From contig NZ_JAIWHV010000008.1 in NCBI RefSeq assembly GCF_020177375.1, positions 87,410 to 151,409 on the forward strand: a DNA stretch of 64,000 nt. The letters are read 5' to 3'. Position numbers and translations under genes: made by a program. The notes under the pieces are model-generated. The model did no database searches. It saw only the letters and a program-made list of their open reading frames with translations, and had not been told where the DNA came from. The stretch is from Saliphagus infecundisoli. Lineage in GTDB: Archaea; Halobacteriota; Halobacteria; Halobacteriales; Natrialbaceae. Of this stretch, positions 19,470 through 35,479 are shown piece after piece; within the stretch, counting starts at the first letter, position 1, and each line of letters opens with the position of its first letter.

Positions 19470-19520
19470 CCTCCGGCGCATAGCAGGCTTTTTCACGGCG
19501 CCCGGCGAGTATTGCCAGTA

Positions 19521-21056
19521 ATGAGCGATCAGGGTTACGGCCACTACGTCGACGGCGAGTGGGTCGAGGGCGACGGCGAGAGCTTCGAGAGCAGGAATCC
19601 GGCGACCGGTGAGACGCTGGCGACGTTCGCCAGAGGCGACGAGAGCGAGGTCGACCGGGCGCTTTCGGCCGCCGACGACGCCTTCGCGGAGTGGCGCCGG
19701 CTGTCGTACATCGACCGCGCGGAGTACCTCTGGGAGATCTACCACGAGCTCCGGGACCGCCACGACGAACTCGGCGAGATCGTTACCAAGGAGTGCGGGA
19801 AGGAACTCTCGGAGGGGAAAGCCGACGTCGCCGAGGCCTGGCACATGGTCGAGTGGGCGGCTGGCAACGCCCGCCACCCCCACGGCGATGTCGTCCCCAG
19901 CGAGGTCGGTGCCAAGGACGCCTACATGCGCCGCAAGCCCCGGGGCGTCGTCGGCTGTATCACCCCCTGGAACTTCCCGGTCGCGATCCCCTTCTGGCAC
20001 ATGGCGATCTCGCTGGTCGAGGGCAACACCGTCGTCTGGAAGCCCGCCGAGCAGACCCCCTGGTGCGGTCAGATCATCGCCGAGATGTTCGAGGAGAGCG
20101 GGATTCCCGACGGCGTGTTCAACATGGTCCAGGGCTTCGGCGACGCCGGCGCGTCGATCGTCGAGGACGACCGCGTCGATACCGTCCTCTTTACCGGCTC
20201 GGCGGAGGTCGGCCAGGAGATCGCGAGTTCGGTCGGCGGCGAACCCGGCAAGCTCGCGGCCTGCGAGATGGGCGGCAAAAACGGGATCGTCATTACCGAA
20301 AAGGCCGACCTCGATATCGCCGTCCACTCGGCGATCATGTCCAGCTTCAAGACGACCGGCCAGCGCTGCGTTTCGAGCGAGCGCCTGATCGTTCACACCG
20401 ACGTCTACGACGAGTTCAAAGAACGGTTCGTGGATCTCGCCGCCGACGTCACCGTCGGCGATCCCCTTACTGAGGAGTCGTTCATGGGCCCCGCGATCGA
20501 GGCCGACCACGTCGAGAAGATCGGTCGGCACAACGAGGTCGCCCGCGAGGAAGGTGCAGAGGTACTGGTCGATCGGTTCGACCTGGAGGGCGAGGACCTC
20601 GCCGGCGACGCCGATCGGGAGGAGGGCCACTGGGTCGGTCCGTTCGTCTACGAGATCGGCTACGATCCCGAACTTCGATGTCTCAAAGAGGAGTGTTTCG
20701 GTCCCCACGTCGCCCTGGTCGAGTACGAGGGGGACATCGAGCGGGCCGTCGAGATCCACAACGACACGCCCTACGGGCTGGCGGGCGCGATCATTAGCGA
20801 GGACTACCGCCAGATCAACCACTTCCGGGACTACGCCGAGGTCGGCCTCTCATACGGCAACCTCCCCTGTATCGGCGCGGAGGTCCAGCTTCCCTTCGGC
20901 GGCGTCAAGAACTCGGGCAACGGCTATCCGAGCGCCCGGGAGGCGATCGAAGCAGTAACGGAACGGACCGCCTGGACGCTCAACAACTCGAAGGAGATCG
21001 AGATGGCCCAGGGGCTGTCGGCGGACATCAGGACGGGCGGGACCGACGAGGACTGA
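19521..21056 (+). CDS. Aldehyde dehydrogenase (NAD(P)-dependent)
   Basis: A 511-residue ALDH superfamily enzyme oxidising an aldehyde to its acid. VVGCITPWNFPVAIPFWH and NTVVWKPAEQTPW form the coenzyme site, EMGGKNGIVI has the general-base Glu, and TTGQRCVSSERLIVH holds the nucleophilic Cys. The sequence has the flavour of ALDH7-like (semialdehyde) members. The ATG at 19521 follows a T-rich box and gives a standard N-terminus (SDQGYGHYVDGEW). Neighbouring Lrp regulator and aminotransferase suggest that its substrate is an amino-acid-derived semialdehyde; this is inference. Confidence 0.9.
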   Translation: MSDQGYGHYVDGEWVEGDGESFESRNPATGETLATFARGDESEVDRALSAADDAFAEWRRLSYIDRAEYLWEIYHELRDRHDELGEIVTKECGKELSEGKADVAEAWHMVEWAAGNARHPHGDVVPSEVGAKDAYMRRKPRGVVGCITPWNFPVAIPFWHMAISLVEGNTVVWKPAEQTPWCGQIIAEMFEESGIPDGVFNMVQGFGDAGASIVEDDRVDTVLFTGSAEVGQEIASSVGGEPGKLAACEMGGKNGIVITEKADLDIAVHSAIMSSFKTTGQRCVSSERLIVHTDVYDEFKERFVDLAADVTVGDPLTEESFMGPAIEADHVEKIGRHNEVAREEGAEVLVDRFDLEGEDLAGDADREEGHWVGPFVYEIGYDPELRCLKEECFGPHVALVEYEGDIERAVEIHNDTPYGLAGAIISEDYRQINHFRDYAEVGLSYGNLPCIGAEVQLPFGGVKNSGNGYPSAREAIEAVTERTAWTLNNSKEIEMAQGLSADIRTGGTDED

Positions 21057-21117
21057 GACGGCGCCGCTCGATCAGCGGACGCCGAGAGGACTCGAGCGGT
21101 CGCACTCGACGGGCCGA

Positions 21118-21645
21118 CTACGACGACCCGTCCCCGTCGAGCACCGCCTCCCTCGCCTCTGAAGTGAGGTTCGACGACACCGCACGGTCGTTCTCGAACT
21201 CCCCGAGGACGAACTTCGAGGACGTCTCGTTGACGCCGTCGATCGCGACGATCCGGTCGATGAGGTCATTCAACTGATCGCGCGTCTGGACGCGGCTCAC
21301 GGCGACGAAATCGACGTCGCCCATGGTGTAGTAGACCTGCTCGACGCCGGAGAGCGCGAGCAGGTTCTCGCCGATGTCCTCGGAGTACCCCCGTTCGTGG
21401 GCCACCATGACGTCGGTGATCGCGGTCAGTTCCAGTCCGAGCGCCAGGGGATCGACGTCGGCCGTGATCCCCTGGATGACACCCTCCTCTTTGAGCTTGT
21501 TCAGCCGGTAGTGGACCGCGGACTTCGAGAGGTCGAGCTCGTCGGCGATCGTCTCCAAATTGACGTCGAAGTCGGCTTCAACCTGCTCGAGCAGCGCGAG
21601 GTCCGTCTCGTCGAGATCGGGGGCCGTGCGACGGGAATCGCTCAT
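21118..21645 (-). CDS. Lrp/AsnC family regulator
   Basis: A 175-residue feast/famine regulator. Residues about 12-70 are the helix-turn-helix (ETDLALLEQVEADFDVNL, LSKSAVHYRLNKLKEEG), followed by the ligand-binding RAM domain (VYYTMGDVDFVAVSRVQTRDQ). It lies 76 nt downstream of and on the same strand as the aminotransferase, and converges with the ALDH gene. It is the most likely local regulator of the amino-acid/pyrimidine genes around it. The ATG at 21643-21645 fits the usual MSDS-type start; a start 45 nt upstream also exists. Confidence 0.9.
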   Translation of the reverse strand: MSDSRRTAPDLDETDLALLEQVEADFDVNLETIADELDLSKSAVHYRLNKLKEEGVIQGITADVDPLALGLELTAITDVMVAHERGYSEDIGENLLALSGVEQVYYTMGDVDFVAVSRVQTRDQLNDLIDRIVAIDGVNETSSKFVLGEFENDRAVSSNLTSEAREAVLDGDGSS

Positions 21646-21721
21646 GGCCCCTAGTCGAGGGTACCGGACCATGAACCACTCGGCTCTCACCGTCGGCGCT
21701 CCCCGATGGCGATCGGCCCGT

Positions 21722-23059
21722 TCAGTCGTCCATCGCGTCGTCGGAGACGTCGAGACCTGCGTCGAGGGCCTCGACGGCCTCGTCGACGTCGTCCTCGGTG
21801 ATCGAAAGCGGCGGAGCGAGGATCAGCGTGTTGATCATGTTCGCGACGTAGGTGCCGTGGTCGCCCGCGGTCGCGGCCACCTCGTCGACGACGGTGGTAC
21901 CGGGGGAGATCTTGTCCTCGCGTTCGCCGAAGGGGACGCGCTCGTCGGCGCGTTTCGTGAGTTCGATCCCCCGGAACAGGCCGACCCCGCGCGTCTCGCC
22001 CACGCTCGGGTGAGCCTCGTCGAGTTCGTCGAGTCGGTCGCCGAGGTAGGCACCGATCTCGCCGGCCCGCTCGATCAGGTTCTCCTCGCGGTAGGTCTCG
22101 ATCGCCGCGAGGCCAGCCGCGACCGCGACCGGGTGGCCCGAGTAGGTGTGGCCGTGACAGAACATCTCCTCCTCGAAGTGGTCGGCGATCTCGGGGGTGA
22201 CGATCGTCGCGCCCAGGGGCTGGTAGGCTCCCGTGAGTCCCTTCGCCATCGTCATGATGTCGGGGGTGACCCCGAAGACGTCACAGCCGAACCACTCGCC
22301 CGTGCGCCCGAACCCGCTCATCACCTCGTCACAGATCAGGAGCGCGCCGTGGTCGTGGGCGATCTCCTTGAGTCGGGGCAAGTACTCGTCCGGCGGCACC
22401 AGAATGCCGTTCGAGCCAACGATCGGCTCGACGACCACCGCGGCGACCGTATCGCCCTCGAGGGTGAGCATCTCGTCGATGTACTCGAGGCTCTCCATGG
22501 GGTCGAGCGTCGAGCCGTAGGCGTAGGGATCGGGGGCCTTGATCGTTCCCGGCACCCCCGGCTCGGCCATCAGCCGCCGGGGGTCGCCGGTGACGCTGAT
22601 CGACCCGTGGGTCGCGCCGTGGTAGGAGCGATAGCGCGAGATGATCTTCTGTTTGCCCGTGTAGAATCGTGCGATCTTGACCGCGGCCTCGACGGCCTCG
22701 GTGCCGCTGGTCGAGAAGAACGTCTTCGTGAGATCGCCCGGCGTGATCTCGGCGAGTTCGCGCCCCAGTTCCGACCGCGCCTCGGTGGTGTACCCCGGCG
22801 AGACGAAGGGGACGTCCCGGATCTGTTCGGCGACCCGGTCGGCGACCCGATCTGCGGAGTGGCCCAGGTTCGAGCACATGAGCTGGCCCGAGAGGTCGAT
22901 GTACTCCTCCCCGTCGGCAGTCGTGAACCTGACGCCGCTGGCGTCGACGACCTGCGTGGGATCGACTTCCTTCTGATAGGACCACGTGCCGAAGACGTGC
23001 TCGCGGTCGGTCCGCTCTACCTCGTTGGCGCCCTCCGTGGCTGATTCCTGGTCGCTCAT
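21722..23059 (-). CDS. Class III omega-amino-acid aminotransferase
   Basis: A 445-residue PLP enzyme. VVVEPIVGSNG, ICDEVMSGFGRTGEWF and MAKGLTGAYQPLG (Schiff-base Lys at about 273) are class III motifs, and GHTYSGHPVAVAA is typical of beta-alanine/taurine:pyruvate-type members. In this neighbourhood the expected reaction is beta-alanine (or 3-aminoisobutyrate) plus a keto acid to malonate (or methylmalonate) semialdehyde, the substrate of the divergent mmsA product. GABA or taurine remain possible substrates. The gene shares a 168-nt divergent promoter region with mmsA. Confidence 0.9.
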   Translation of the reverse strand: MSDQESATEGANEVERTDREHVFGTWSYQKEVDPTQVVDASGVRFTTADGEEYIDLSGQLMCSNLGHSADRVADRVAEQIRDVPFVSPGYTTEARSELGRELAEITPGDLTKTFFSTSGTEAVEAAVKIARFYTGKQKIISRYRSYHGATHGSISVTGDPRRLMAEPGVPGTIKAPDPYAYGSTLDPMESLEYIDEMLTLEGDTVAAVVVEPIVGSNGILVPPDEYLPRLKEIAHDHGALLICDEVMSGFGRTGEWFGCDVFGVTPDIMTMAKGLTGAYQPLGATIVTPEIADHFEEEMFCHGHTYSGHPVAVAAGLAAIETYREENLIERAGEIGAYLGDRLDELDEAHPSVGETRGVGLFRGIELTKRADERVPFGEREDKISPGTTVVDEVAATAGDHGTYVANMINTLILAPPLSITEDDVDEAVEALDAGLDVSDDAMDD

Positions 23060-23088
23060 ACGTCCCCCCTACTCAGCACTCTCTGATT

Positions 23089-23199
23089 AGTCTTTGGCTC
23101 AAATCCGGAAGTGGCGGACGAAGGACGACCGCCAGCGGAATAACGGAACAGAAGTCGACGATTCGGACGTTTAGATGAATTTCGTCGCAAAGACTTAAG
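23089..23199. promoter_or_regulatory. Divergent aminotransferase/mmsA promoters with mirrored CAAAGACT box
   Basis: CAAAGACT occurs on the minus strand at 23089-23096 and on the plus strand at 23188-23195, about 30-37 and 33-40 nt before the two start codons. On the mmsA side it runs into CTTAAG (TATA-like, to 23199), and on the aminotransferase side into CTAATC. The repeated box is either a shared BRE-type core element or a regulator site. Confidence 0.45.
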
Positions 23200-23227
23200 G
23201 CCGAGAGCACGCATGCACGGGTATCGC

Positions 23228-24703
23228 ATGCAACTCGATACGACCCCGCCGTGGGACGACGTACGGAACTACATCGACGGCGACTGGCGCGCGCCCTCCG
23301 AGGAGGGGCTCGACGTCGTCAACCCGACGACCGGCGAGACGATCTCCTACGTCGGCTTCAGCTCCGACGAGGAGGTCGACGAGGCCGTCCGGGCCGGACA
23401 GGCGGCGTTCGAGGAGTGGCGGAAGACACCCGTCGAGGAGCGGATCCAGCCGCTGTTCGCGCTCAAGGAGCTCCTCGAGGAACACCACGACGACCTCGCG
23501 CGGGTTCTCGTCCAGGAGCACGGCAAGACGCTCGCCGAGGCCAGGGGCGAACTCCGGCGCGGGATCGAGAACGTCGAGGTCGCCTGCGGGATCCCCTCGA
23601 TGATGCAGGCGGGCCACCTTCCCAACGCCGCTCCCGAGATCGACGAGACCGCGGTCCGGAAACCGCTGGGCGTGTTCGCGGCGATCACCCCCTTCAACTT
23701 CCCCGGAATGATCCCGCTGTGGTTCCTTCCTTACGCCGTCGCGACGGGCAACTCCTTCGTCCTCAAACCCAGCGAACAGGACCCCGTGGTGGCCCAGCGA
23801 CTGTTCGAGCTCATGGAGGAAGCCGGGTTCCCGGACGGCGTGGTTCAGCTCGTCAACGGCGGCGTCGACACCGTCAACGCCCTGCTCGACCACGAGGGGA
23901 TCGAGGGGGCTTCCTTCGTCGGCTCGACGCCCGTCGCACGCACCATCTACGAGCGGGCGGCCAAAAGCGGCAAGCGCGTCCAGGCTCAAGGTGGAGCGAA
24001 GAACCACGTCATCGTGACCGAGAGCGCCGATCTCGACTTTGCCGCCGAGAAGACGGTCTCCTCGGCGTGTGCGTGTGCGGGCGAGCGGTGTCTCGCGAAC
24101 GACGTCGTCGTCGTCGACGAATCGGTCTACGACGAGTTCGCCCAGCGGGTCGTGGACGTAGCGAAGAACCAGACGGTCGGCGACGGACTCGACGAGGACA
24201 CTGACATCGGCGCGCTGATCAGCGCCGACCACGAGTCGAACGTCCGCGACATGATCGCGACGGGCGTCGACGAGGGGGCCGAACTCCTCGTCGACGGCCG
24301 CGACGTCGAGGTCGAGGAGCGTCCCGACGGCAACTTCCTCGGCCCGACCGTCTTCGGCGACCTCGACCCCGAGATGACCCTCGCGCGCGAGGAGACGTTC
24401 GGCCCGGTGCTCGGCCTCCTGCCGGTCGCCGACGTCGAGGAGGCCATCGACGTCTTGAACCGGAGCGACTTCGGCAACGCCGCGAGCCTGTTTACGGCGA
24501 GCGGTGCGGATGCCCGGAAGGTCCGCCACGAGGCCGACGTCGGTAACCTGGGGGTCAACGCCGGCACCGCCGCCCCGATGGCGTTCTTCCACTTCGGCGG
24601 CTGGAAGGATTCCTTCTTCGGGGACCTCCACGCCCAGGGCGACGACATGATCCGGTTCTACACGGACGAGATGGTCTACATCGAGCGCTGGCCCGACGCC
24701 TGA
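23228..24703 (+). CDS. mmsA: Methylmalonate/malonate-semialdehyde dehydrogenase (CoA-acylating)
   Basis: A 491-residue ALDH of the MmsA group, which converts methylmalonate semialdehyde to propionyl-CoA, or malonate semialdehyde to acetyl-CoA, with CO2 and NADH. ITPFNFPGMIPLWFLPYA, FVLKPSEQDP and QAQGGAKNHVIV (Ala/Gly-Ala-Lys-Asn in place of the general-base Glu, as in CoA-acylating members) and GERCLAN with the nucleophile Cys288 are visible. These endpoints match thymine and uracil breakdown. The ATG at 23228 follows CTTAAG by about 29 nt. Confidence 0.92.
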   Translation: MQLDTTPPWDDVRNYIDGDWRAPSEEGLDVVNPTTGETISYVGFSSDEEVDEAVRAGQAAFEEWRKTPVEERIQPLFALKELLEEHHDDLARVLVQEHGKTLAEARGELRRGIENVEVACGIPSMMQAGHLPNAAPEIDETAVRKPLGVFAAITPFNFPGMIPLWFLPYAVATGNSFVLKPSEQDPVVAQRLFELMEEAGFPDGVVQLVNGGVDTVNALLDHEGIEGASFVGSTPVARTIYERAAKSGKRVQAQGGAKNHVIVTESADLDFAAEKTVSSACACAGERCLANDVVVVDESVYDEFAQRVVDVAKNQTVGDGLDEDTDIGALISADHESNVRDMIATGVDEGAELLVDGRDVEVEERPDGNFLGPTVFGDLDPEMTLAREETFGPVLGLLPVADVEEAIDVLNRSDFGNAASLFTASGADARKVRHEADVGNLGVNAGTAAPMAFFHFGGWKDSFFGDLHAQGDDMIRFYTDEMVYIERWPDA

Positions 24704-24862
24704 GCCCGAACGGCCCGTTCGACCCGCCAGCACCGACCGGCCGACGTCGGTTCGAGCGGCGACTATCGAATTAATTCGAGTTATTCCGAAGAACAGTGAA
24801 CGTTCGACCATCAATTAGCGGAACCGATAGACATATTGGGAACGGACGAGTCGTGTGGTCGT
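24704..24862 (+). promoter_or_regulatory. Promoter region of first LLM oxidoreductase with 14-bp palindrome
   Basis: TCGAATTAATTCGA at 24766-24779 is a perfect palindrome in otherwise GC-rich DNA. The TATA-like CATATT at 24832-24837 lies 26 nt before the ATG. The palindrome is about 55 nt upstream of the TATA box, where an activator would bind. GAACGTTC at about 24798-24805 is a second, smaller palindrome. Confidence 0.4.
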
Positions 24863-25924
24863 ATGCCACTCGAGGAGTTCGCGATCACGTTCAAAGGAGA
24901 TATCTCGCCCGAGCGGACGGTGGCGCTCGCGGGGCTCGCGGAGGACGCGGGGTTCGACTACGGCTGGTTCTACGACTCGCACGTCCTCTGGAAGGATCCC
25001 TACCCACAGATGACACAGCTGCTGGAGAACACCGACCGGATGAAGACGGGGACGCTCGTCACCAATCCCAAAGTACGGGACGTCTCGGTGACCGCGAGCT
25101 CCTTTGCGGGACTGAACCAGCTCTCGGGCGGCCGCGCGGAGCTGGGCATCGGCCGCGGCGACAGCTCGCTCCGGATGCTCGGCGAGGAGCCCGTGCCCTG
25201 GCACGAGTTCGAGGAGCAGGTGGACTACATCCGCGAGCTCCACCGTGGCGAGGCGATCGAGCACCCTGACACCGGCCGGGAGATCGAACTCACGTGGACC
25301 GACACCGAGCTCGTGACCTGGGTGGCCGCCTACGGCCCGAAGATGCTCGAGCTCGCGGGCAGGATCGCCGACGGCGTGATCCTCCAGATCTCCGATCCCT
25401 ATCTCGTGGGCTGGTTCGTCGACCAGATCCGCGAGGGCGCGCGCAAACACGGCCGGGACCCCGACGAGATCAGGGTGATGTCGTGTGCGCCGGTCTGGCT
25501 CAGCGAGGACGAAGAGGAGGCCCGCGACAGGCTCCGGTGGTTCCTCGCGATGGTCGGCAACCACGTCGCCGACCTCGTCGACACCCACCACAAGGGCGAC
25601 CAGCTCCCCGAGGAGCTGACGAACTACATCGAGGGCCGGAAAGGCGAGGGCGCCGAGGGCGGCTACGACTACACCGAACACGCAGAACAGGACGCGGATC
25701 ATTTAGAGTGGATCCCCGACCCGATGATCGACCGCTTCTGTGTCCTCGGTACGCCCGAGGAGCACGTCGCGAAGCTCGAAGAGCTCGAGGATCGGGGCGT
25801 CGATCAGTTCAACGTCTATCTCATGTCGGGCGAGGAGGCCAGACACGTCGAGACCTACGGGCGGGAGGTGATCCCGGCGTTCACCGACGGGAAACAGTAC
25901 GCCGAGGCGGGTATCGACTCGTAA
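24863..25924 (+). CDS. LLM-class flavin/F420-dependent oxidoreductase
   Basis: A 353-residue luciferase-like monooxygenase-fold protein. MPLEEFAITFKGDIS, AEDAGFDYGWFYDSH, LSGGRAELGIGRGDSS and VAAYGPKMLELAGRIADGVIL follow the F420-dependent TIM-barrel pattern (compare methylene-H4MPT reductase and F420 alcohol dehydrogenase). Haloarchaea make coenzyme F420. The reaction cannot be read from sequence. Between mmsA and a uracil permease, a pyrimidine 5,6-reductase role is possible; an oxygenase like RutA is the alternative. The ATG at 24863 has its own TATA-like box 26 nt upstream. Confidence 0.85.
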   Translation: MPLEEFAITFKGDISPERTVALAGLAEDAGFDYGWFYDSHVLWKDPYPQMTQLLENTDRMKTGTLVTNPKVRDVSVTASSFAGLNQLSGGRAELGIGRGDSSLRMLGEEPVPWHEFEEQVDYIRELHRGEAIEHPDTGREIELTWTDTELVTWVAAYGPKMLELAGRIADGVILQISDPYLVGWFVDQIREGARKHGRDPDEIRVMSCAPVWLSEDEEEARDRLRWFLAMVGNHVADLVDTHHKGDQLPEELTNYIEGRKGEGAEGGYDYTEHAEQDADHLEWIPDPMIDRFCVLGTPEEHVAKLEELEDRGVDQFNVYLMSGEEARHVETYGREVIPAFTDGKQYAEAGIDS

Positions 25925-26063
25925 GCGGTGGGCACGGGTCCGCGCTCGTCGCCGACAGCGAGGTTCCGCGTCCGCGCCCCGGTAGGAGTCCGCCCGGAAT
26001 CCGATACCGGACGCTCGCGCCGCCCCGGTGTGCATAGATCCAACTACGTTCCAAAAAACGGGC

Positions 26064-26159
26064 CGAACATCGAAACAATCTTCGTATAGATTTCGGAATG
26101 TCGAAAACAACCCGAACATCTAAGTCAGTCTCCCGACGTTGTTCACAGCGTAATGTTCG
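26064..26159. promoter_or_regulatory. Permease upstream region with three CGAACAT copies
   Basis: The 280-nt gap 25925-26204 holds no gene. CGAACAT occurs at 26064-26070 and 26113-26119 in direct orientation and as ATGTTCG at 26153-26159. This stretch is unusually A/T-rich for the window. TCGTATAG (about 26082-26089) is TATA-like but far from the start, so the permease mRNA may have a leader. Confidence 0.45.
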
Positions 26160-26204
26160 CACACCGACTGACTGACGTTTCATCCGACCGATCGGGGCCC
26201 GCCC

Positions 26205-27746
26205 ATGGCTGAGGGCGGCGATGCACCCGCCGGGTCGGCCGACGACGAGAGCATGGTGCTGTACGGGGTCGACGACAAGCCACCGCTGGGGCAGTCGATC
26301 CTGCTCGGCGTCCAACACTGGATGACGATGGTCGGCTCGACGATCGCGATCCCGCTTGTGCTCTCGGGGTCGCTCGGGTTCGACGCCGCCCAGACCGCAC
26401 AGCTCGTCGGGACCTTCTTCGTGGTCTCGGGGGTCGCCACGCTCGCACAGACCACGGTCGGAAACCGGTATCCGATCGTCCAGGGCGGGACGTTCTCGAT
26501 GCTCGGGCCGGCGATCGCCATCATCGGCGTACTCGCGACCAGCGACGCTTCGTCGACGGTGATGATGCGCGAGCTCCAGGGGGCGATCATCGTCGCCGGG
26601 CTCGTCGAGGTCGCCATCGGCTACTTCGGGCTCTTCGGCCGCCTGAAGAAGTACATGGGGCCGATCGTGATCGCGGTCGTGATCAGTCTCATCGGGCTGG
26701 CGCTGCTCAGCGTCGGACAGATCACCTCCGCGACCCAGAACTGGTATCTCGCGGGGCTGACCCTCGCGTTGATCGTGTTGTTCTCCCAGTACCTCAACGC
26801 GCGCTCGAAGGTGTTCAAGCTGTTTCCCGTGCTCCTCGGACTTGGGGCCGCCTACCTGATCGCGGTCGTGGTTTCGGTGGCCGGCATCGCGAACGTCGTC
26901 GACCTGAGTCCGGTGGCGTCGGCACCCCCGGTCCGCGGGATCGTCCCCTTCCAGTGGGGGATGCCGCTGTTCACCGGATCGTTCATCGTCGGGATGCTCG
27001 CCGGCATGCTCGCCTCGGCGATCGAGAGCTTCGGCGACTACCACTCGGTCGCCCGGATGGCCGGAGAGGGTGCTCCGAACAAGAAGCGGATCAACCACGG
27101 CCTCGGGATGGAGGGGATCGGCAACGTCTTCGCCGGGATCATGGGTACCGGCAACGGCTCGACCTCGTATACCGAGAACGTCGGCGCGATCGGAATTACG
27201 GGCGTGGCCTCGCGCTACGTCGTCCAGATCGGTGCCGTCGTCATGATCATCGTCGGCTACGTGGGCTACTTCGGGGCGTTCGTGACGACGATCCCCGACC
27301 CGATCGTCGGCGGACTGTTCCTCGCGATGTTCGCCCAGATCGTCGGCGTCGGCCTCTCACAGCTCCAGCACGTCGACATGAACCAAAACCGGAACGTGTT
27401 CGTCGTCGGCTTCGGGCTGTTCGCCGGCCTCTCGATTCCCCAGTACGTCGCGAACGTCCAGGCTTCCGACGTCTCCTTCGAGGCCGGGCTCGCGGGCGTT
27501 CCGGTGTTGGGGTCCGTTCTCGGCATCCCCGAGGTCGCGAGCACCATCTCGATCGTGCTGGGAACCGAGATCGCCGTCGGCGGCATCGCGGCGTTCGTCC
27601 TCGACAACACGATCCCCGGGACCAAAGAGGAACGCGGCCTCACCGCCTGGGAGGAGATCACCGAGGACGAGACCGCCTTCGAGCCGTTCCACGAACGGTA
27701 CCTCTCGGACGACGGCTCCGCCGACAGGACCGTGGGTGACGACTGA
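26205..27746 (+). CDS. NCS2 uracil/xanthine permease
   Basis: A 513-residue nucleobase transporter of the UraA/NAT family (14 membrane segments in two inverted repeats) importing uracil, thymine or xanthine with a cation. GVQHWMTMVGSTIAIPL near the N-terminus, YPIVQGGTFSMLGPAIA, AIESFGDYHSVARMAG (TM8 substrate Glu) and MGTGNGSTSYTENVGAIGIT (TM10 signature) are visible. The adjacent hydantoinase and carbamoyl hydrolase argue for pyrimidine uptake. The stop overlaps the next start by one base (TGATG), so the two are co-translated. Confidence 0.92.
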   Translation: MAEGGDAPAGSADDESMVLYGVDDKPPLGQSILLGVQHWMTMVGSTIAIPLVLSGSLGFDAAQTAQLVGTFFVVSGVATLAQTTVGNRYPIVQGGTFSMLGPAIAIIGVLATSDASSTVMMRELQGAIIVAGLVEVAIGYFGLFGRLKKYMGPIVIAVVISLIGLALLSVGQITSATQNWYLAGLTLALIVLFSQYLNARSKVFKLFPVLLGLGAAYLIAVVVSVAGIANVVDLSPVASAPPVRGIVPFQWGMPLFTGSFIVGMLAGMLASAIESFGDYHSVARMAGEGAPNKKRINHGLGMEGIGNVFAGIMGTGNGSTSYTENVGAIGITGVASRYVVQIGAVVMIIVGYVGYFGAFVTTIPDPIVGGLFLAMFAQIVGVGLSQLQHVDMNQNRNVFVVGFGLFAGLSIPQYVANVQASDVSFEAGLAGVPVLGSVLGIPEVASTISIVLGTEIAVGGIAAFVLDNTIPGTKEERGLTAWEEITEDETAFEPFHERYLSDDGSADRTVGDD

Positions 27747-28177
27747 TGGCCCACGCCCGCGAGGCGACGACAGCGGCCGGATCGCCGCCGAGTTCGGGGG
27801 GCGACGCCGGAACCTCGATCACGAAGACGTCGCTGCGGACGGGGGGATGGCTCGGGTACGACGAGGACGCCCTCTACGTCGCCCGCGACGATCGGATCAA
27901 ACTCCGCGGGGAGGACGTCACGCGGATCACGCTTCGAGTCGTCGAGTGGGACCTGGTGGTGATGAGCCTCCTGCTCGTCGGCGTCGGCGGCTACGTCTCG
28001 ATGACGGGCAACACCCTTGTGGGGATCGGGTTCGCCGTCGTCGGGGCACTGAGCCTCTATCGGACCTACCGCAAGCGCTACGAGCTCGAGATCCGCGTCG
28101 AGGGCGGGAAGTCGGTGACGGTCTACCCCGCCCATCCGAAGCGGTGTCACGAACGCCTCGCCGGACACCTCGACTGA
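27746..28177 (+). CDS. Two-helix membrane protein coupled to the permease
   Basis: A 143-residue protein whose ATG shares its A with the permease stop. A Gly/Ser-rich N-terminus precedes a short beta segment (GYDEDALYVARDDRIKLRGEDVTRITLR) that resembles a PH-like fold, then two membrane helices (about residues 72-104), and a beta/basic end. Function unknown. Translational coupling suggests an accessory role to the transporter or simple operon packing. Confidence 0.75.
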   Translation: MAHAREATTAAGSPPSSGGDAGTSITKTSLRTGGWLGYDEDALYVARDDRIKLRGEDVTRITLRVVEWDLVVMSLLLVGVGGYVSMTGNTLVGIGFAVVGALSLYRTYRKRYELEIRVEGGKSVTVYPAHPKRCHERLAGHLD

Positions 28178-28264
28178 CCGTCCCCTGTTCGGCCGAGGGG
28201 GTCACCGCGCGATCCCGCTGGATAATCGACTGGAAATAAACGGTAAATACGGGCGTTTCATCGG

Positions 28265-28278
28265 ACATCGTTCGATGT
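28265..28278. promoter_or_regulatory. ACATCG inverted repeat upstream of M20 hydrolase
   Basis: ACATCG-TT-CGATGT is a perfect 6-bp inverted repeat about 40 nt upstream of the TATA-like CTTAAG (28321-28326), which lies 24-29 nt before the ATG at 28350. The ACATCG half also occurs in the permease upstream region (26067-26072). Candidate activator or repressor site. Confidence 0.4.
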
Positions 28279-28349
28279 AGTGTGAATAACGGGCCAATCA
28301 GTTCTACACTCTGGACAAAACTTAAGACACTGGTGTCCGTCGTACGGTC

Positions 28350-29585
28350 ATGCGACTCGAGGTCGACGAGGAGCGCCTCATCGAGACGATGGAAGAACAG
28401 GCCGAGATCGGCGCCACCGACGACGGCGGTCTCCACCGACTGACGCTGTCGGACGACGACGAGCGGATCAGAGACTGGCTCCGCGAGGAGATGGAGGAGT
28501 TGGGTCTCGACGTTCGGGTCGACGCGTTCGGGAATATGTTCGGTCGGCGCGAGGGCACCGAGGACCTCGATACCGTCCTCCTGGGCTCGCATCTGGACTC
28601 CCAGCCCTACGGCGGGATCTACGACGGCGCGCTCGGCGTCGTCGCCGCACTCGAGTTCGTCCGCGGGCTCGAGGAGGAGGGCATCGAGACCGCCCACCCC
28701 GTGGAGGTCGTCAACTGGACCAACGAGGAGGGCTCGCGCTACCAGCCCGCGATGCAGGGAAGCGGCGTCTGGGCAGGCGTCCACGACATCGACGAACAGT
28801 ACGACCAGACCGACGAGGACGGCAACAGGTTCGAGGACGAACTCGAGCGCATCGGCTACAAGGGCGACGTTCCCGCGGAACCGACCGAGGAGTACGAGGC
28901 GTATCTCGAACTCCACATCGAGCAGGGACCGTATCTGGAGGAGGGCGACCACGACGTCGGCGTCGTCACCGGGATCGTCGGCTTCACCTGGGGCGCGATC
29001 ACGTACCACGGCGAGGCAGACCACACGGGGCCGACGCCGATGGAGTATCGAAGCGACGCGTTAGTCGCCGCCGCCGACGTCATCACCCAGATCCGGCGGA
29101 TTCCGGGCACGCTCGGCGAGCGGACCGTCGGCTCGACGGGCTACATCGACGCGAAGCCGAACTCGATCAACATCATCCCCGGCGAGGTCACGTTCACGTG
29201 GGGCTTTCGGGACCCCGACGACGAGATCGTCGAGGAGGCCTACCAGCGGGTGCTCGCCGAGGCGGAGGCCGCCGCCGAGCGCGAGGGCGTCGACTGGGAG
29301 TGGGAGGAACGGATGCGTGCGCCCGCCGTCGAGTTCGCCGATCAGTGTGTCGAGGCGGTCGCGGGTGCGGCCGACGACGCGGGCTACGACGCCAGACGGA
29401 TCTTCAGCGGCGCGGGCCACGACGCGACCCACATGACCGAACACATGGACACCGGGATGGTGTTCGCGGTCAGCGAGAACGGCAAGAGCCACAGCGAGTC
29501 CGAATACACGAGCTGGGAGGACTGCCACGCCGCCGTCACCACCTACGTCAACGCGGCCTACGAGCTCGCGACGGAGGACCGATGA
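28350..29585 (+). CDS. M20 Zn-dependent amidohydrolase (N-carbamoyl-amino-acid hydrolase / beta-ureidopropionase type)
   Basis: A 411-residue enzyme removing the carbamoyl group from N-carbamoyl-beta-alanine or N-carbamoyl-L-amino acids, giving the amino acid, CO2 and ammonia. Two-metal site: GSHLDSQPYGGIYDGALGV (His, bridging Asp), NWTNEEGSRY (Glu), ELHIEQGPYLE (His) and SGAGHDATHM (His). ADHTGPTPM is the dimer-domain motif that reaches the active site. Length and motifs fit the HyuC/AmaB/PydC group. The stop overlaps the start of the next LLM gene (ATGA). Allantoate amidohydrolase is a less likely alternative in this context. Confidence 0.9.
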   Translation: MRLEVDEERLIETMEEQAEIGATDDGGLHRLTLSDDDERIRDWLREEMEELGLDVRVDAFGNMFGRREGTEDLDTVLLGSHLDSQPYGGIYDGALGVVAALEFVRGLEEEGIETAHPVEVVNWTNEEGSRYQPAMQGSGVWAGVHDIDEQYDQTDEDGNRFEDELERIGYKGDVPAEPTEEYEAYLELHIEQGPYLEEGDHDVGVVTGIVGFTWGAITYHGEADHTGPTPMEYRSDALVAAADVITQIRRIPGTLGERTVGSTGYIDAKPNSINIIPGEVTFTWGFRDPDDEIVEEAYQRVLAEAEAAAEREGVDWEWEERMRAPAVEFADQCVEAVAGAADDAGYDARRIFSGAGHDATHMTEHMDTGMVFAVSENGKSHSESEYTSWEDCHAAVTTYVNAAYELATEDR

Positions 29586-30613
29586 CGACGTTCGACCGCG
29601 TCGGGATCTGGAACTGGGAGCGTCCCGACATCGAGGAGGAACTCCACTATGCCCAGTACGCAGAGGAGCAGGGTCTGGACTCCGTCTGGCAGGGCGAGTC
29701 CCGGCTCGTGCGCGACGCGATGACCGTGATGGGCGCCTACACCCAGGTCACCGACGAGATCGACATCGCGCCGGGCGTGACGAACTGCTACACCAGAAAC
29801 GTCGCTCTGATGGCCCAGACGTTCTCGACGCTCGACGAGCTTTCCGGAGGGCGGATGAAACTCGGGATCGGCGCGTGGTGGGACCCGCTCGCGAGCAACG
29901 TCGGGATCGAGAGGGAGAAACCCCTCCGGCGGATGTGGGAGTACTGCACCGTCGTCAAGCGCCTGCTCGACCTCGAGAACGTCACCTACGAGGGCGAGAC
30001 GCTCTCGGTCTCCGACATCGAACTCGACCTGGTGCGCTCGAACGCCGACGCCCGCGACGTCCCGATCTACGTCGGCGCGACCGGACCGACGATGCACGAA
30101 CTCACGGGCGAACTCGTCGGCCTCGGGATCTGTGGCGGGGTGTTCATGAACTACCTCATTCCCCCGGAGCACAACGAGGAAGGCGTCGAGCGCCTCGAGC
30201 GGGGCGTCGAGAAACAGGGCGGCACCCTCGCGGACGTCGACCGGCCACAGCTCATCGCGGTCTCGATGGACGAGGACTACGAGACCGCCGTCGACAACGC
30301 TCGCCACCTCGTCACCCAGTACATCGGCCAGCAGCCCCACATCCGGAAGGCCTGTGGTATCGACCCCGAACGCGGCGAGGAGATCAAGGAGGAACTCGGA
30401 AGCTGGCCGGCGAGCGAAGCGGACATCGAGCGGGCATCGCGGCTCGTCGACGACGAGATCGTGACGAACGTCGTCGCAGCGGGCACCCCCGAGGACGTCG
30501 TCTCCCGCGTCGGCGACTACTGCGAGGCGGGCTGTACGGAGCCGGTCGTCTACTCGCTCGGCGACAACGTCGAGGAGGTCATCGACGTCTTCGCGGCCCA
30601 CAAGGCGTCCTGA
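29582..30613 (+). CDS. Second LLM-class F420-type oxidoreductase
   Basis: A 343-residue LLM protein distinct from the first copy. MTTFDRVGIWNWER, EEQGLDSVWQGES, ELSGGRMKLGIGAWWDPLAS and VPIYVGATGPTMHELTGELV are typical of F420-dependent dehydrogenases/reductases of the Mer/Adf type. Its ATG overlaps the hydrolase stop by four bases, so it is translationally coupled to the decarbamoylating enzyme, and it converges with the dihydropyrimidinase gene 27 nt away. Reduction of uracil/thymine by F420H2 is a hypothesis; no substrate residue can be named. Confidence 0.85.
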   Translation: MTTFDRVGIWNWERPDIEEELHYAQYAEEQGLDSVWQGESRLVRDAMTVMGAYTQVTDEIDIAPGVTNCYTRNVALMAQTFSTLDELSGGRMKLGIGAWWDPLASNVGIEREKPLRRMWEYCTVVKRLLDLENVTYEGETLSVSDIELDLVRSNADARDVPIYVGATGPTMHELTGELVGLGICGGVFMNYLIPPEHNEEGVERLERGVEKQGGTLADVDRPQLIAVSMDEDYETAVDNARHLVTQYIGQQPHIRKACGIDPERGEEIKEELGSWPASEADIERASRLVDDEIVTNVVAAGTPEDVVSRVGDYCEAGCTEPVVYSLGDNVEEVIDVFAAHKAS

Positions 30614-30639
30614 GACGGTCAGCTCTCGGTACCCGGCAA

Positions 30640-32043
30640 CTATTCGGCGGTCCGCGTGTGGCCAGCCGGCCCCCACTCGGGGACCTCGCGGGAGACGAAC
30701 TCGCCGTGGCCGGATTCGCCGACGATCTCGCCGTCCGCTGCGACCAACTCGCCTCTGACGAACGTCTTCGTCACCTTCCCCTGGAGTTCGCGACCCTCGT
30801 AGATCGAGAACTCCGAGACGGAGTGGTTGTCGGCGGGGTCGATCGTGTAGGTCTCCTCGGGGTCGAAGAGGACGACGTCGGCGTCGGTGCCGGGCTCGAG
30901 CGTCCCCTTCCCTTCGAGACCGAACGTCCGTGCTGGGTTCGTACACATCACTTCGACGACGAGCGCGGGATCGAGGCCGCGGCGGTTGACGGCCTCGTCG
31001 TAGAACACCGGCAAACTGACCTGGAGGGCGTTCGCGCCGAAGGCGCTGTCCCACCAGTTGTCGACCTCCTTCTGGTCGAGACGGTAGCCACAGTGGTCCG
31101 TCGAGACCACGTCGAGGGTTCCCGAGCGGATGTACTCGAACATCGCCTCGATGTCGTCGGGTTTCCTGATCGGCGGCGCGATCATCGGGAGGTTCCCCAT
31201 CTCCTCGAAGACGCTGTCGTCGAGCGTACAGTAGTGCGTACAGGTCTCGGCTCTGATCTGACTGCCGTCCTCGCGGTAGGAGTCGATCACGTCGGCGGCC
31301 GCCCGACTCGAGGTGTGGATGCCGTAGTACTGGAGCCCCGTTTCTTTGGCCATCCGGACCGCGTCGTCGGCGGCCATCGCCTCGACGTAATCCGGCCGCG
31401 ACTTCGGATACCACTCGGGGTCGCCCTTCCCTTCCTCCTTGAACCGGGCGGTGAGTTCCTCGACGACGGAGTCGTCCTCGGTGTGGAAGACGCCGACGGC
31501 GCCCTCCTCGGCGATGTGCTCCATCGCCCGGCGCATGAAGCCGTTCGAGAGACCGTGTTCGTAGGTCGTGAACATCTTGAACGAGGTGACGCCTGCATCG
31601 ATCACGTCCGCGAGTTCGTCGAACACCGCCGGGTCCTCGCGGGTGATCGCGCCGTGGAGCCCGTAGTCGACGAGGGCATCGGCGCCCTTCTCGCGCTTTC
31701 GCTCGACGCCCTCGAGGAGCGTTCCCGGCTCGTCCCAGAGGCTCAGGTCGCCGTCCCAGGCCTGCCACGCGAAGTCGATGTACGTGGTCGTTCCGCCGGC
31801 GGCGGCGGCGCCCGTCGCCGTCTCGTAGCTATCAACCGAGAACATGTCGTCGACGTGGACGTGGACGTCGACCGCGCCTGGAATGACGAACTGGCCGGTC
31901 GCGTCGACGGTCTCCTCGGCGTCGGGGAGGTTTTCTGCGTCCCCGACGGCGACGATGCGTCCGTCGTCGATGGCAATGGCTCCCGACGCGGATCCCTCGG
32001 CCGTGACCAACGTCCCACCGGTAATGATGCGGTCGACTACCAT
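30640..32043 (-). CDS. Dihydropyrimidinase / hydantoinase
   Basis: A 467-residue metal-dependent amidohydrolase opening 5,6-dihydrouracil (or a hydantoin) to the N-carbamoyl amino acid. VHVHVDD gives His61 and His63, GVTSFKMFTTYEHG has Lys156, which is carboxylated to bridge the metals, YYGIHTSS and HTEDD add His ligands, and VVSTDHCGY the final Asp. CTNPARTFGLEGKGTLEPGTDADVV is the usual C-terminal motif. The ATG at 32041-32043 follows a CTTATG box about 27 nt upstream on the minus strand. Its product is the substrate of the M20 hydrolase. Confidence 0.92.
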   Translation of the reverse strand: MVVDRIITGGTLVTAEGSASGAIAIDDGRIVAVGDAENLPDAEETVDATGQFVIPGAVDVHVHVDDMFSVDSYETATGAAAAGGTTTYIDFAWQAWDGDLSLWDEPGTLLEGVERKREKGADALVDYGLHGAITREDPAVFDELADVIDAGVTSFKMFTTYEHGLSNGFMRRAMEHIAEEGAVGVFHTEDDSVVEELTARFKEEGKGDPEWYPKSRPDYVEAMAADDAVRMAKETGLQYYGIHTSSRAAADVIDSYREDGSQIRAETCTHYCTLDDSVFEEMGNLPMIAPPIRKPDDIEAMFEYIRSGTLDVVSTDHCGYRLDQKEVDNWWDSAFGANALQVSLPVFYDEAVNRRGLDPALVVEVMCTNPARTFGLEGKGTLEPGTDADVVLFDPEETYTIDPADNHSVSEFSIYEGRELQGKVTKTFVRGELVAADGEIVGESGHGEFVSREVPEWGPAGHTRTAE

Positions 32044-32941: not shown

Positions 32942-34405
32942 CTAGTGGCCCTCCCGGCGCATCCGCCAGAGTTCGTCGAGGGTGATGACCTCGACGCCGT
33001 CGGTGCCGTCGATATGCTCGAGGAGCTGGTCGTACTCGTCGCGGTCGACGGTGTTGTCGAGATCGAAGTCGTGGAAGTTGAGGACCGTACACTGGCCGTA
33101 CGCGGCCGCGTGATCGACACACTGCCGGCAGATCTCGAGGTCGTAACCGATCGTCCGGGGGAGGACGAGAGGGTCGAAGCCGTGGACGGCGGTGAGGTTG
33201 ACGTTCCCGGCCTGGTTGTAGCCGCCGGCGTAGTAGTAGTCCGAAACGATATCGAGGACGGTCGCGTCGAAGCTGTTGTGGGGGAAGGTGATGAAGTTCG
33301 CGCCCTCGAAACCGCTGTTGACCGCCCACTGTTTGTCCGTCTCGAGGGCCTCCCGGAGGTCGCCGGGGTCCATCTCGGCGAAGCGGGCGTGGGTGCCGTG
33401 GGCGACGATCTGGTCGCCCGCTTGCTGGCGCTCTAAGAGTGCCCCGCGGGTCATCACGTCCTCGCGGGCGTTGCTCGTCCACTGGCGGACGACCGACTGG
33501 ACGGCGTCGACGCCGTACTCGTCGTGCAGGGGGGCGACCTCCTCGTAGTAGGTCCGCAGGCCGTCGTCCCAGCCGAGGACGACGTACCCCGAGTCGGGCT
33601 TCCCGTGGGTCCGGATGTCGTCGACCCAGACCTCGGCGCCCTCGCCCGTGTGGTGAACCCGCACCTCGAGGCGGGCGAGGGAATCCATCTCGGGGGGATA
33701 CTCGTCCTCCTCGAAGACGCCCGGAGCCGTCCGGAACCAGCCAACGTCGCGGGTTCGGTAGGCGATCGAGGGAAGCTGGTAGATCCGGCTGCTGCCGTAG
33801 ATATCGACGAATCGGAGCTCGACGGCGATGTTCTCGGGCGTCGGCGTCCGGACGGCCATCGAGACGTCACGGTCGGTCAGGTCGGGGTTGTCGCCCTCGA
33901 GGTCGCGCTCGATGACCATGTTCGCGCCCTCCTCTTCCGTGTACAGCCGGACGCTCTGGGAGCCGGCGAAGACGACCTCGTCGTCGACCTCGGCCTCTCC
34001 CTCCGTGATCGACCACGAAGAGAGGTCCTCGAAGTCGTCGAAGGAGTCGCCGGGCCGGGCGTACTCCTCGCGGCTGTTGTACTCCGTCTCGAGGGCGAGT
34101 TCCAGATCCGCTACGTCCTCGTCCGTTTCGTTCCCACCCTCGTCGGTTCCGTTTTCCGCGCCGTTCCCGTCCGTTTCGTTTTCCTCCGTCTCGGTTTCCG
34201 TCCTGTTTCCGGTCTCGTCGCCGTCGGTCTCCGTGCCCTCGCTTGCGTTCGTCTCCGTCGTCCCTTCATCGGATTCATCGTCAGTCGGTTCGGTCCCGTT
34301 CCCGTTACCGTCCCCTCCGTCGCCGGCACAGCCCGCAATCGCGGTTACGGCCGTCGCTCCCCCGAACCCGAGCAGCCGGCGTCTGGTGGTCGATGGGTCG
34401 GCCAT
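32942..34405 (-). CDS. Polysaccharide deacetylase-family lipoprotein with sequon-rich stalk
   Basis: A 487-residue exported protein: Tat motif RRRLLGFGG and lipobox IAGC (Cys at about residue 26). Residues about 27-105 are a Gly/Asn/Glu/Thr/Asp linker with six N-X-S/T sequons (NGT, NAS, NRT, NET, NGT, NET). Then a beta-sandwich-like module (SFDDFEDLSSWSI, AGSQSVRLY) and from about 270 a NodB-type deacetylase barrel (YVVLGWDDGLRTYYEEVAP; HGTHARFAEM; VLNFHDFDL). It likely acts on surface polysaccharide; with variant metal residues, activity is not certain. Confidence 0.8.
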   Translation of the reverse strand: MADPSTTRRRLLGFGGATAVTAIAGCAGDGGDGNGNGTEPTDDESDEGTTETNASEGTETDGDETGNRTETETEENETDGNGAENGTDEGGNETDEDVADLELALETEYNSREEYARPGDSFDDFEDLSSWSITEGEAEVDDEVVFAGSQSVRLYTEEEGANMVIERDLEGDNPDLTDRDVSMAVRTPTPENIAVELRFVDIYGSSRIYQLPSIAYRTRDVGWFRTAPGVFEEDEYPPEMDSLARLEVRVHHTGEGAEVWVDDIRTHGKPDSGYVVLGWDDGLRTYYEEVAPLHDEYGVDAVQSVVRQWTSNAREDVMTRGALLERQQAGDQIVAHGTHARFAEMDPGDLREALETDKQWAVNSGFEGANFITFPHNSFDATVLDIVSDYYYAGGYNQAGNVNLTAVHGFDPLVLPRTIGYDLEICRQCVDHAAAYGQCTVLNFHDFDLDNTVDRDEYDQLLEHIDGTDGVEVITLDELWRMRREGH

Positions 34406-34636: not shown

Positions 34637-35479
34637 TCAGTACCGTCGGTCGGACAGCGCGGGGAACTCCCCTCTGACCTCCCGGACGCGACCGGGGTCG
34701 AGATCGGCGACGACCGTCGTCGGCTCGTCGCCGCTTGCGGCGACGGGCGTCCCCCAGGGGTCGTAGACGGTCGACTCGCCGACCAGCCGCTCGCCGCCGA
34801 AGCTTCCGCTGCCGTTGGCCGTCGCGAGGTACCACTGGTTCTCGATCGCCCGCGCCCGCGAGAGGGTCCGCCAGTGGTCGAGCCGGGGGTAGGGCCACGC
34901 GCTCGGGACGACAACGAGCGTCGCGCCCCGCTCGACGAGCCGGCGGTAGAGTTCGGGAAATCGGAGGTCGTAGCAGGTCGTCACGCCGACGGTAAAGGGG
35001 CCGATCTCCGCGGTCTCGAGGCGTTCCCCGGGGACGAGCAGCTCGCTTTCGGCGGACTCGTAGCCGAAGAGGTGGTGTTTGCGGTAGACGAGCCGGCGCT
35101 CGCCGTCGGAATCGAAGAGCACGGCGGTGTTCGCGAGCCCCTCGTCGGCGGGGGTCTCCACGTCGGGTTCCGCGTCGGCGGTCGCCGCGAGGTCCTCGAC
35201 GACCGTCCCCGCGAGCACCGCGACCCCCCGGTCGGCCGCGAGCTCGCCGATCCGGGTCAGGGTCTCGCCGTCCAGCCCCTCGGCGGTCTCCTCGTAGCGA
35301 TCGAACGCGAAGTAGCCCGCGGTGAACAGCTCCGGAAGCGCGACCAGGTCCGCGCCCCGGTCGGCCGCCCGCCCGACGGCCTCCATGGCCCGACGACGGT
35401 TGCCGGCGACGTCGCCGCCCTCGATCCGGAGCTGGGCGAGCACGAGGCGATACCCTCCGTCGCCGTCCTCGTCGATCAT
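34637..35479 (-). CDS. Carbon-nitrogen hydrolase (nitrilase family)
   Basis: A 280-residue amidase of the nitrilase superfamily. The catalytic triad is visible as Glu in LVALPELFTAGY, Lys in LVYRKHHLF and Cys in VGVTTCYDLRFPELYR. The sequence is of the omega-amidase/N-carbamyl hydrolase kind; substrate unknown. Its ATG overlaps the stop of the SRPBCC gene by four bases, giving translational coupling. It is not near enough to the pyrimidine genes to be assigned there, though beta-ureidopropionases of other organisms belong to this superfamily. Confidence 0.9.
   Translation of the reverse strand: MIDEDGDGGYRLVLAQLRIEGGDVAGNRRRAMEAVGRAADRGADLVALPELFTAGYFAFDRYEETAEGLDGETLTRIGELAADRGVAVLAGTVVEDLAATADAEPDVETPADEGLANTAVLFDSDGERRLVYRKHHLFGYESAESELLVPGERLETAEIGPFTVGVTTCYDLRFPELYRRLVERGATLVVVPSAWPYPRLDHWRTLSRARAIENQWYLATANGSGSFGGERLVGESTVYDPWGTPVAASGDEPTTVVADLDPGRVREVRGEFPALSDRRY

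Follow-up and report, generated by a model that had tools for sequence, protein, structure and literature searches.

The window analyzed here, a stretch of 64,000 nucleotides from the haloarchaeon Saliphagus infecundisoli, contains a compact gene cluster that is quite likely to serve the reductive breakdown of pyrimidines, with LLM1, an F420-type oxidoreductase of the LLM class, as the probable F420H2-dependent ring reductase replacing the iron–sulfur (Fe-S) flavoprotein dihydropyrimidine dehydrogenase (DPD). Strong comparative support for this role of LLM1 comes from the gene neighbourhoods of its relatives, their linkage to F420 synthesis, the absence of DPD, and a predicted structure resembling the F420-dependent reductase Mer; on such grounds we infer its substrate, cofactor use, and reaction direction. 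The coordinates of the cluster genes are positions in the window; the host genome has 4.5 Mb in 76 contigs, with 99.8% completeness and 4.5% contamination. The genes of the cluster are as follows.

21118–21690, minus strand: Lrp/AsnC-type regulator, likely local (Pfam AsnC_trans_reg and helix–turn–helix domains)
21722–23059, minus strand: class III aminotransferase, predicted beta-alanine/beta-aminoisobutyrate aminotransferase (PF00202, E 2e-94)
23213–24703, plus strand: MmsA, CoA-acylating (methyl)malonate-semialdehyde dehydrogenase (TIGR01722, 511.6 bits, above the cut-off of 448.5)
24863–25924, plus strand: LLM1, predicted F420H2-dependent dihydropyrimidine dehydrogenase (TIGR03842 (F420_CPS_4043), 398.1 bits, above the curated cut-off of 295.45)
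26205–27746, plus strand: NCS2 nucleobase permease, predicted importer of a pyrimidine (or purine) (PF00860, E 2e-76)
27746–28177, plus strand: small protein beside the permease, conserved next to NCS2
28350–29585, plus strand: M20 N-carbamoyl-amino-acid hydrolase, predicted beta-ureidopropionase (TIGR01879, 398.8 bits, above the cut-off of 204)
29582–30613, plus strand: LLM2, predicted second F420-type LLM oxidoreductase, whose ATG overlaps the M20 stop codon (ATGA)
30640–32043, minus strand, converging on the others: dihydropyrimidinase/hydantoinase (top family TIGR02033)

According to the proposed scheme, uracil or thymine would enter the cell through the NCS2 permease, and LLM1 would yield the 5,6-dihydro base by delivering a hydride of F420H2 to the ring at C6. 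The F420H2 would be regenerated with NADPH by an F420:NADP oxidoreductase or by some other F420 reductase. Next, the dihydropyrimidinase would open the dihydro ring, and loss of its carbamoyl group through the M20 enzyme would leave beta-alanine or beta-aminoisobutyrate. From this the aminotransferase would form (methyl)malonate semialdehyde, which MmsA would convert to acetyl-CoA or propionyl-CoA. For LLM2, the most likely role is that of a further F420-dependent ring reductase, acting on a second pyrimidine or a related base; its lineage also occurs in purine-type clusters.

The permease, dihydropyrimidinase, M20 hydrolase, class III aminotransferase, MmsA, and two LLM proteins named in the original prediction are all present in the window. 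Its proposal that one or both LLM proteins reduce uracil or thymine with F420H2 gains strong comparative support for LLM1 and is less clear for LLM2.

Neighbourhoods of LLM1 and F420 synthesis

The neighbourhood analysis covered the best 80 of at least 585 LLM1 relatives obtained in a scan of genome contigs. These loci belong to Acidobacteriota, Chloroflexota, Alphaproteobacteria, and other groups and are nearly all bacterial, so that the proposed F420-type entry step is not specific to haloarchaea. Of the 80 loci, 53 contain a dihydropyrimidinase gene, compared with about 0.4 expected by chance (about 1.5 dihydropyrimidinase-family matches per genome, 75 in 50, and an assumed mean genome size of 4.3 Mb). 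Since the loci are not phylogenetically independent, the binomial figure for this linkage is overstated; the association recurs in several phyla. Genes of F420 synthesis or npdG occur in 23 loci, and either these or a dihydropyrimidinase gene in 67. Many contigs are short; where at least 5 kb is available on both sides, 36 of 37 loci carry dihydropyrimidinase or F420 genes. Other members of the proposed pathway are also found nearby, namely NCS1/NCS2 permeases (20 loci), MmsA (16), class III aminotransferases (26), M20 hydrolases (10), and carbon–nitrogen hydrolases (38). It should be noted that the last two counts were made with looser scores than the rest, under which MmsA and aminotransferase would reach 17 and 27 loci.

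Genome-level profiles of PreA, F420 ligase, and dihydropyrimidinase cover 50 of the 80 LLM1 genomes; a dihydropyrimidinase above the cut-off is encoded by 49 of them and F420 ligase by 47, while F420 ligase matches were found in 3 of 14 control genomes, all three archaea. The relationship is sharpest in the family of Paracoccus denitrificans, where 9 of 198 genomes have a TIGR03842 protein above the cut-off and the identical 9 have F420 ligase (hypergeometric 9e-16; G235 and G230 among these were drawn from the selected LLM1 loci). For four of the nine (L091 of P. denitrificans, L137, L138, and L085), a dihydropyrimidinase gene lies within the available stretch.

The gene order in Alphaproteobacteria, which also provided the top LLM1 matches in a plasmid search, brings the two functions together. 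In Leisingera aquaemixtae, a pntAB–aminotransferase–M20 hydrolase–hydA–NCS1 symporter group is divergent from cofG-cofH-cofD-cofC-cofE-npdG-LLM1, and in P. denitrificans DSM 413 the same cof-npdG-LLM1 series adjoins NCS1-hydA-M20. Paracoccus alcaliphilus has this series too, followed by genes for an ABC importer whose binding protein is NMT1/THI5-like; no dihydropyrimidinase was found in its available stretches. Such importers in alphaproteobacterial LLM1 loci (L085, 14783–18326; L016, 11211–13809) are candidate pyrimidine importers.

We consider it fairly likely that TIGR03842 as a whole is an F420H2-dependent DPD unrelated to PydA, present in Acidobacteriota, Chloroflexota, Alphaproteobacteria, and some haloarchaea. 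In Alphaproteobacteria it would then travel as one cassette with the whole F420 pathway and an F420:NADP reductase, pyrimidine breakdown being the reason for making F420. Together with the LLM2 family, TIGR03842 would represent F420-based nucleobase dearomatisation, both families meeting in the window.

Protein family of LLM1 and the missing DPD

Both LLM1 and LLM2 are nearer in sequence and fold to proven F420 enzymes than to enzymes using flavin mononucleotide (FMN). The predicted models of both are closest to F420-dependent Mer, with RutA showing the same fold at lower Z, and for LLM1 the F420 enzymes occupy the top rows by sequence as well as by structure. RutA-type chemistry was judged very improbable for LLM1 and rejected on this basis, and the analogy with RutA drawn in the original prediction is weak for both proteins. 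LLM1 as a true Mer was likewise rejected, because the acid at the Glu6 position of Mer is not conserved: LLM1 sequences have Thr (36 of 39) or Cys (3 of 39) there, and LLM2 sequences have Trp (14), Tyr (11), Phe (4), His (1), or Gly (1) among 31, with the register taken from the first aligned residues of the structure alignments, ungapped. The LLM1 reading frame opens with TTG at 24836, and the ATG at 24863 agrees with the homologues. In a tree of 150 rows, which is read here as unrooted because its one control row was badly placed, the six haloarchaeal LLM1 rows form one clade (support 100) among bacterial rows, and LLM2 forms another (support 99); alignment A2 omits L024 (Rhodococcus, 38%).

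The original prediction had noted no Fe-S DPD in the window, and this holds for the genome. Of 145 haloarchaeal genomes, the host included, not one exceeds the cut-off of the PreA model (NF006183, cut-off 335), and PF01180 gives one strong match in the host, the quinone-dependent PyrD, besides two weak partial ones; a hidden DPD was rejected as a candidate on these grounds. LLM1 itself matches only PF00296 in Pfam and not the PF01180 FMN barrel with Fe-S domains. Among the LLM1 genomes, that of P. denitrificans (G235) has no PreA match at E ≤ 1e-40. In the PreA-bearing Leisingera genomes G243 and G244, a separate hydA lies 2.4 kb from PreA, another hydA of G244 shares a contig with F420 ligase, and so does one of the two hydA genes of Aquamicrobium G242. 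All 145 haloarchaeal genomes encode F420 ligase. A CofH homologue lies on the contig of the cluster (contig positions 77417–78508), about 10 kb before the window, at 304.8 bits and below its cut-off of 374.1.

Haloarchaeal clusters, LLM2, and alternative explanations

LLM2 is above no NCBIfam cut-off, its best families being Mer and TIGR04024. It has a match (E ≤ 1e-60) in 17 of 145 Halobacteria genomes, the host included, five at 75–100% and twelve at 50–52% identity. One of these loci, L143, unites carbamoylase, dihydropyrimidinase, MmsA, aminotransferase, permease, LLM1, and LLM2 in a single cluster. The other close loci are less complete (L145 with carbamoylase, MmsA, and aminotransferase; L144 with carbamoylase only; L142 with no cluster genes). 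On plasmids, LLM2 accompanies carbamoylase, MmsA, and aminotransferase in L018, L019, and L177, and carbamoylase in L021 and L027, where MmsA and aminotransferase are not in the available stretch.

More distant relatives of LLM2 have other neighbours. On Haloarcula pNG700 (L020, 1–18956), a 50% relative stands with a xanthine permease (above the cut-off), an SsnA-like hydrolase (below the cut-off), and a PALP-fold enzyme scoring as threonine synthase. Genes for a hydantoinase-like protein, an M20 hydrolase, and molybdopterin dehydrogenase lie there as well, and the whole may be an F420-type reductive purine cluster. Six bacterial regions surround relatives of 46–50% identity, five in Chloroflexota and one in Hydrogenedentota; cofC, cofD, and cofE are found in five of the six and npdG in four of those five. 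The only one of the six scanned with Pfam, Chloroflexota L164 (399–15064), has its LLM2-like protein among PALP-fold, amidohydrolase, and xanthine-dehydrogenase-type genes, and further carries cofC, cofD, cofE, npdG, and a DUF6909 protein. The same genome, G212, has its LLM1 elsewhere, in locus L055 with dihydropyrimidinase (hydA) and MmsA, and LLM1 was rejected as a purine-type LLM on that account. L170 encodes an LLM of another family, with TIGR03619 as its best model, below the cut-off. In summary, LLM1 goes with pyrimidine genes, and purine-type genes accompany part of the wider LLM2 family. LLM2 of the window lies in a pyrimidine-type cluster; because of its relatives in purine-type clusters, its presumed substrate is less certain than that of LLM1.

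A number of observations weigh against ring reduction by LLM1, which is deduced from comparison. The dihydropyrimidinase of the window scores 341.6 bits on TIGR02033, under the equivalog cut-off of 393.25, and hydantoins are also among the substrates of the NCS1, NCS2, and dihydropyrimidinase families. Neither dihydropyrimidinase nor F420 genes are seen in 13 of the 80 LLM1 loci (L032, L039, L040, L047, L050, L056, L067, L068, L069, L071, L075, L094, and L106), of which 11 have less than 3 kb on one side and two, L032 and L056, have more. F420 ligase is absent in three LLM1 genomes (G199, G211, and G226). PreA is above its cut-off in 5 of the 50 LLM1 genomes (G220, G240, G242, G243, and G244) and near it in G226 (296 vs. 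335 bits), and 20 of the 50 have some PreA match at E ≤ 1e-40, mostly of 145–183 bits; the top sub-threshold haloarchaeal match is one of 180 bits in G070. LLM1 is rare in haloarchaea: none of 99 other relatives has a close copy, the best match being 35%, and among the haloarchaeal loci examined it occurs in a full cluster only in L143. LLM2 stands without LLM1 in the available stretches of clusters L018, L019, L145, and L177, and a 17 kb stretch of Halostagnicola encodes a dihydropyrimidinase together with carbamoylase, permease, and aminotransferase but contains no LLM gene. LLM1 is thus not universal; in some haloarchaeal clusters it is missing, and in some there is no LLM at all.

Two haloarchaeal clusters in whose available stretch no LLM gene is seen carry a gene of the aldehyde:ferredoxin-oxidoreductase family (L171, 2965–4818; L174, 13432–15279). 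In Halostagnicola L171 it stands with dihydropyrimidinase, carbamoylase, permease, and aminotransferase; its companions in L174 are MmsA, aminotransferase, and carbamoylase. A tungsten-type reductase could be another entry step.

An explanation that we regard as unlikely, while taking it seriously, is that LLM2 rather than LLM1 is the uracil/thymine reductase of haloarchaea and that LLM1 arrived later with another or overlapping substrate (e.g., thymine vs. uracil). The start of LLM2 overlaps the stop of the carbamoylase gene, and in Haloferax volcanii the luciferase-family gene HVO_A0295A presumably adjoins the carbamoylase gene amaB2, judging by gene number. Haladaptatus has LLM2 without LLM1 in clusters that encode a cytosine permease in addition to carbamoylase, dihydropyrimidinase, aminotransferase, and MmsA. 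In the available passages of the H. volcanii study (PMC6801745), HVO_A0295A, whose identity with LLM2 is assumed here, was induced, along with dpyS, mmsA, and gabT6, when the medium contained uracil. The wider LLM2 family, however, lies beside xanthine-dehydrogenase-type, PALP-fold, SsnA-like, or other amidohydrolase genes, which points to purines, and the LLM found next to dihydropyrimidinase in bacteria is LLM1. It is improbable that LLM1 reduces some other ring, such as a purine intermediate or a hydantoin-type compound, with the dihydropyrimidinase acting as a hydantoinase. The dihydropyrimidinase family is promiscuous, and the sub-cut-off score of the window member would fit; yet MmsA and an omega-aminotransferase suit beta-alanine or beta-aminoisobutyrate, the purine-type cluster of G212 holds an LLM2-like protein and not its LLM1, and no xanthine dehydrogenase, SsnA, or PALP gene was found in the 20 open reading frames of the window scanned at 14.6–41.1 kb.

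That LLM1 is an FMN- and O2-dependent uracil monooxygenase like RutA, which shares the fold and binds uracil, seems very improbable to us: besides the ranking of F420 enzymes in the comparisons above, LLM1 occurs only together with F420 ligase among the 198 genomes, and the RutA route needs no dihydropyrimidinase. We give the least credence to a classical DPD that was missed through an assembly gap or divergence, the LLM genes being incidental. The 76 contigs, the 4.5% contamination, and the two weak PF01180 matches leave some room for it; against it stand the 99.8% completeness, PreA scores under the cut-off in 145 of 145 haloarchaeal and 45 of 50 LLM1 genomes, and a linkage of LLM1 to dihydropyrimidinase that is independent of the host genome. 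An F420H2-dependent reductase of uracil or thymine thus remains the role that we favour for LLM1.

The permease, described as a uracil/xanthine permease in the original prediction, is an NCS2 member above the cut-off of the generic purine/pyrimidine permease model NF037981 and below those for xanthine, uracil, and RutG; L143 has an 86% copy. The dihydropyrimidinase has TIGR02033 as its top family, at a score below equivalog level, and can be aligned with solved D-hydantoinases and dihydropyrimidinases (E 6e-72). Copies of the aminotransferase at 77–82% identity are present in the haloarchaeal clusters L018, L019, L143, and L145, and Lrp/AsnC homologues adjoin the cluster in L143 (66%), N. bangense L019 (60%), and L145 (63%). 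The small protein has a 56% copy beside the permease in L143 and a 41% copy in the Halostagnicola cluster L171; it has no NCBIfam match, and the Pfam run, made only on the overlapping frame 27736–28239, gave none. One more gene flanks the cluster:

19512–21056, plus strand: KGSADH-like (2-oxoglutarate-semialdehyde-dehydrogenase-like) aldehyde dehydrogenase (PF00171)

This protein is above no NCBIfam cut-off (25 best of 43 matches); its membership in the pathway is doubtful, and it was not counted there. On the other side, the cluster is adjoined by genes for a polysaccharide-deacetylase-family protein (32942–34405) and a carbon–nitrogen hydrolase (34637–35479); a polysaccharide-deacetylase-family gene is also co-induced in the H. 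volcanii region, as described in the available part of that study (PMC6801745).

Significance and relation to known systems

If TIGR03842 is an F420-dependent DPD, a large LLM family acquires a function, the reductive pyrimidine pathway gains an entry enzyme unrelated to PydA, and F420 synthesis in some Alphaproteobacteria is explained. The passages available of a review on F420 state that why Proteobacteria and Chloroflexi make F420 is unanswered and requires experimental work, and that P. denitrificans contains it only in traces (PMC8498797); in those of a review on haloarchaeal annotation, only one F420-dependent reaction is reported for halophiles to its authors' knowledge (PMC8305020). 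Our proposal would offer a testable answer to both review questions, in P. denitrificans and in Haloferax-type haloarchaea. A literature search with subscription papers and preprints outside its scope found no description of F420-dependent uracil or thymine reduction in catabolism.

A close precedent for the cluster is the H. volcanii region HVO_A0293–A0307, which likewise has genes for a carbamoylase (amaB2), dpyS, mmsA, gabT6, a luciferase-family protein, and an Lrp-type protein. As far as the available passages go, amaB2, dpyS, mmsA, gabT6, and the luciferase-family gene were co-induced on alanine when uracil was present in the medium, a route from uracil via beta-alanine to acetyl-CoA was proposed, and the Lrp-type gene was proposed to regulate the co-induced genes; the entry enzyme for uracil is unnamed in these passages, and F420 is absent from the main text (PMC6801745).

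With the Pyd pathway (PydA/PreAT/PydAc), the cluster shares dihydropyrimidinase, carbamoylase, beta-alanine aminotransferase, and malonate-semialdehyde dehydrogenase after ring reduction. The difference lies in the first step: the known DPD enzymes are PyrD-family FMN and Fe-S proteins with NAD(P)H or ferredoxin as the donor, according to the available part of PMC7332683, whereas the window has an unrelated F420-type LLM barrel.

Among LLM proteins, RutA resembles LLM1 in fold and acts on uracil, and Mer, the F420-dependent methylenetetrahydromethanopterin reductase with direct hydride transfer from F420H2, is the closest solved relative of LLM1 and LLM2 in fold and sequence, although its Glu6 position is occupied by Thr or Cys in LLM1 and mostly by aromatic residues in LLM2. 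The putative F420/FMN oxidoreductase SSGG-03002/NpsU of mureidomycin/napsamycin biosynthesis was assigned a role in uracil C5=C6 reduction from its disruption, in vitro activity not having been obtained by the authors, as given in the available part of PMC10714638; it serves antibiotic biosynthesis and is likened to LLM1 by role. The putative F420-dependent yanthine reductase of Chloroflexota is an LLM proposed to dearomatise a purine with F420H2 and is encoded near SsnA (PMC12507026). Its clusters are similar in make-up to those of the LLM2 relatives, whereas LLM1 comes from another LLM family, one linked with dihydropyrimidinase and MmsA.

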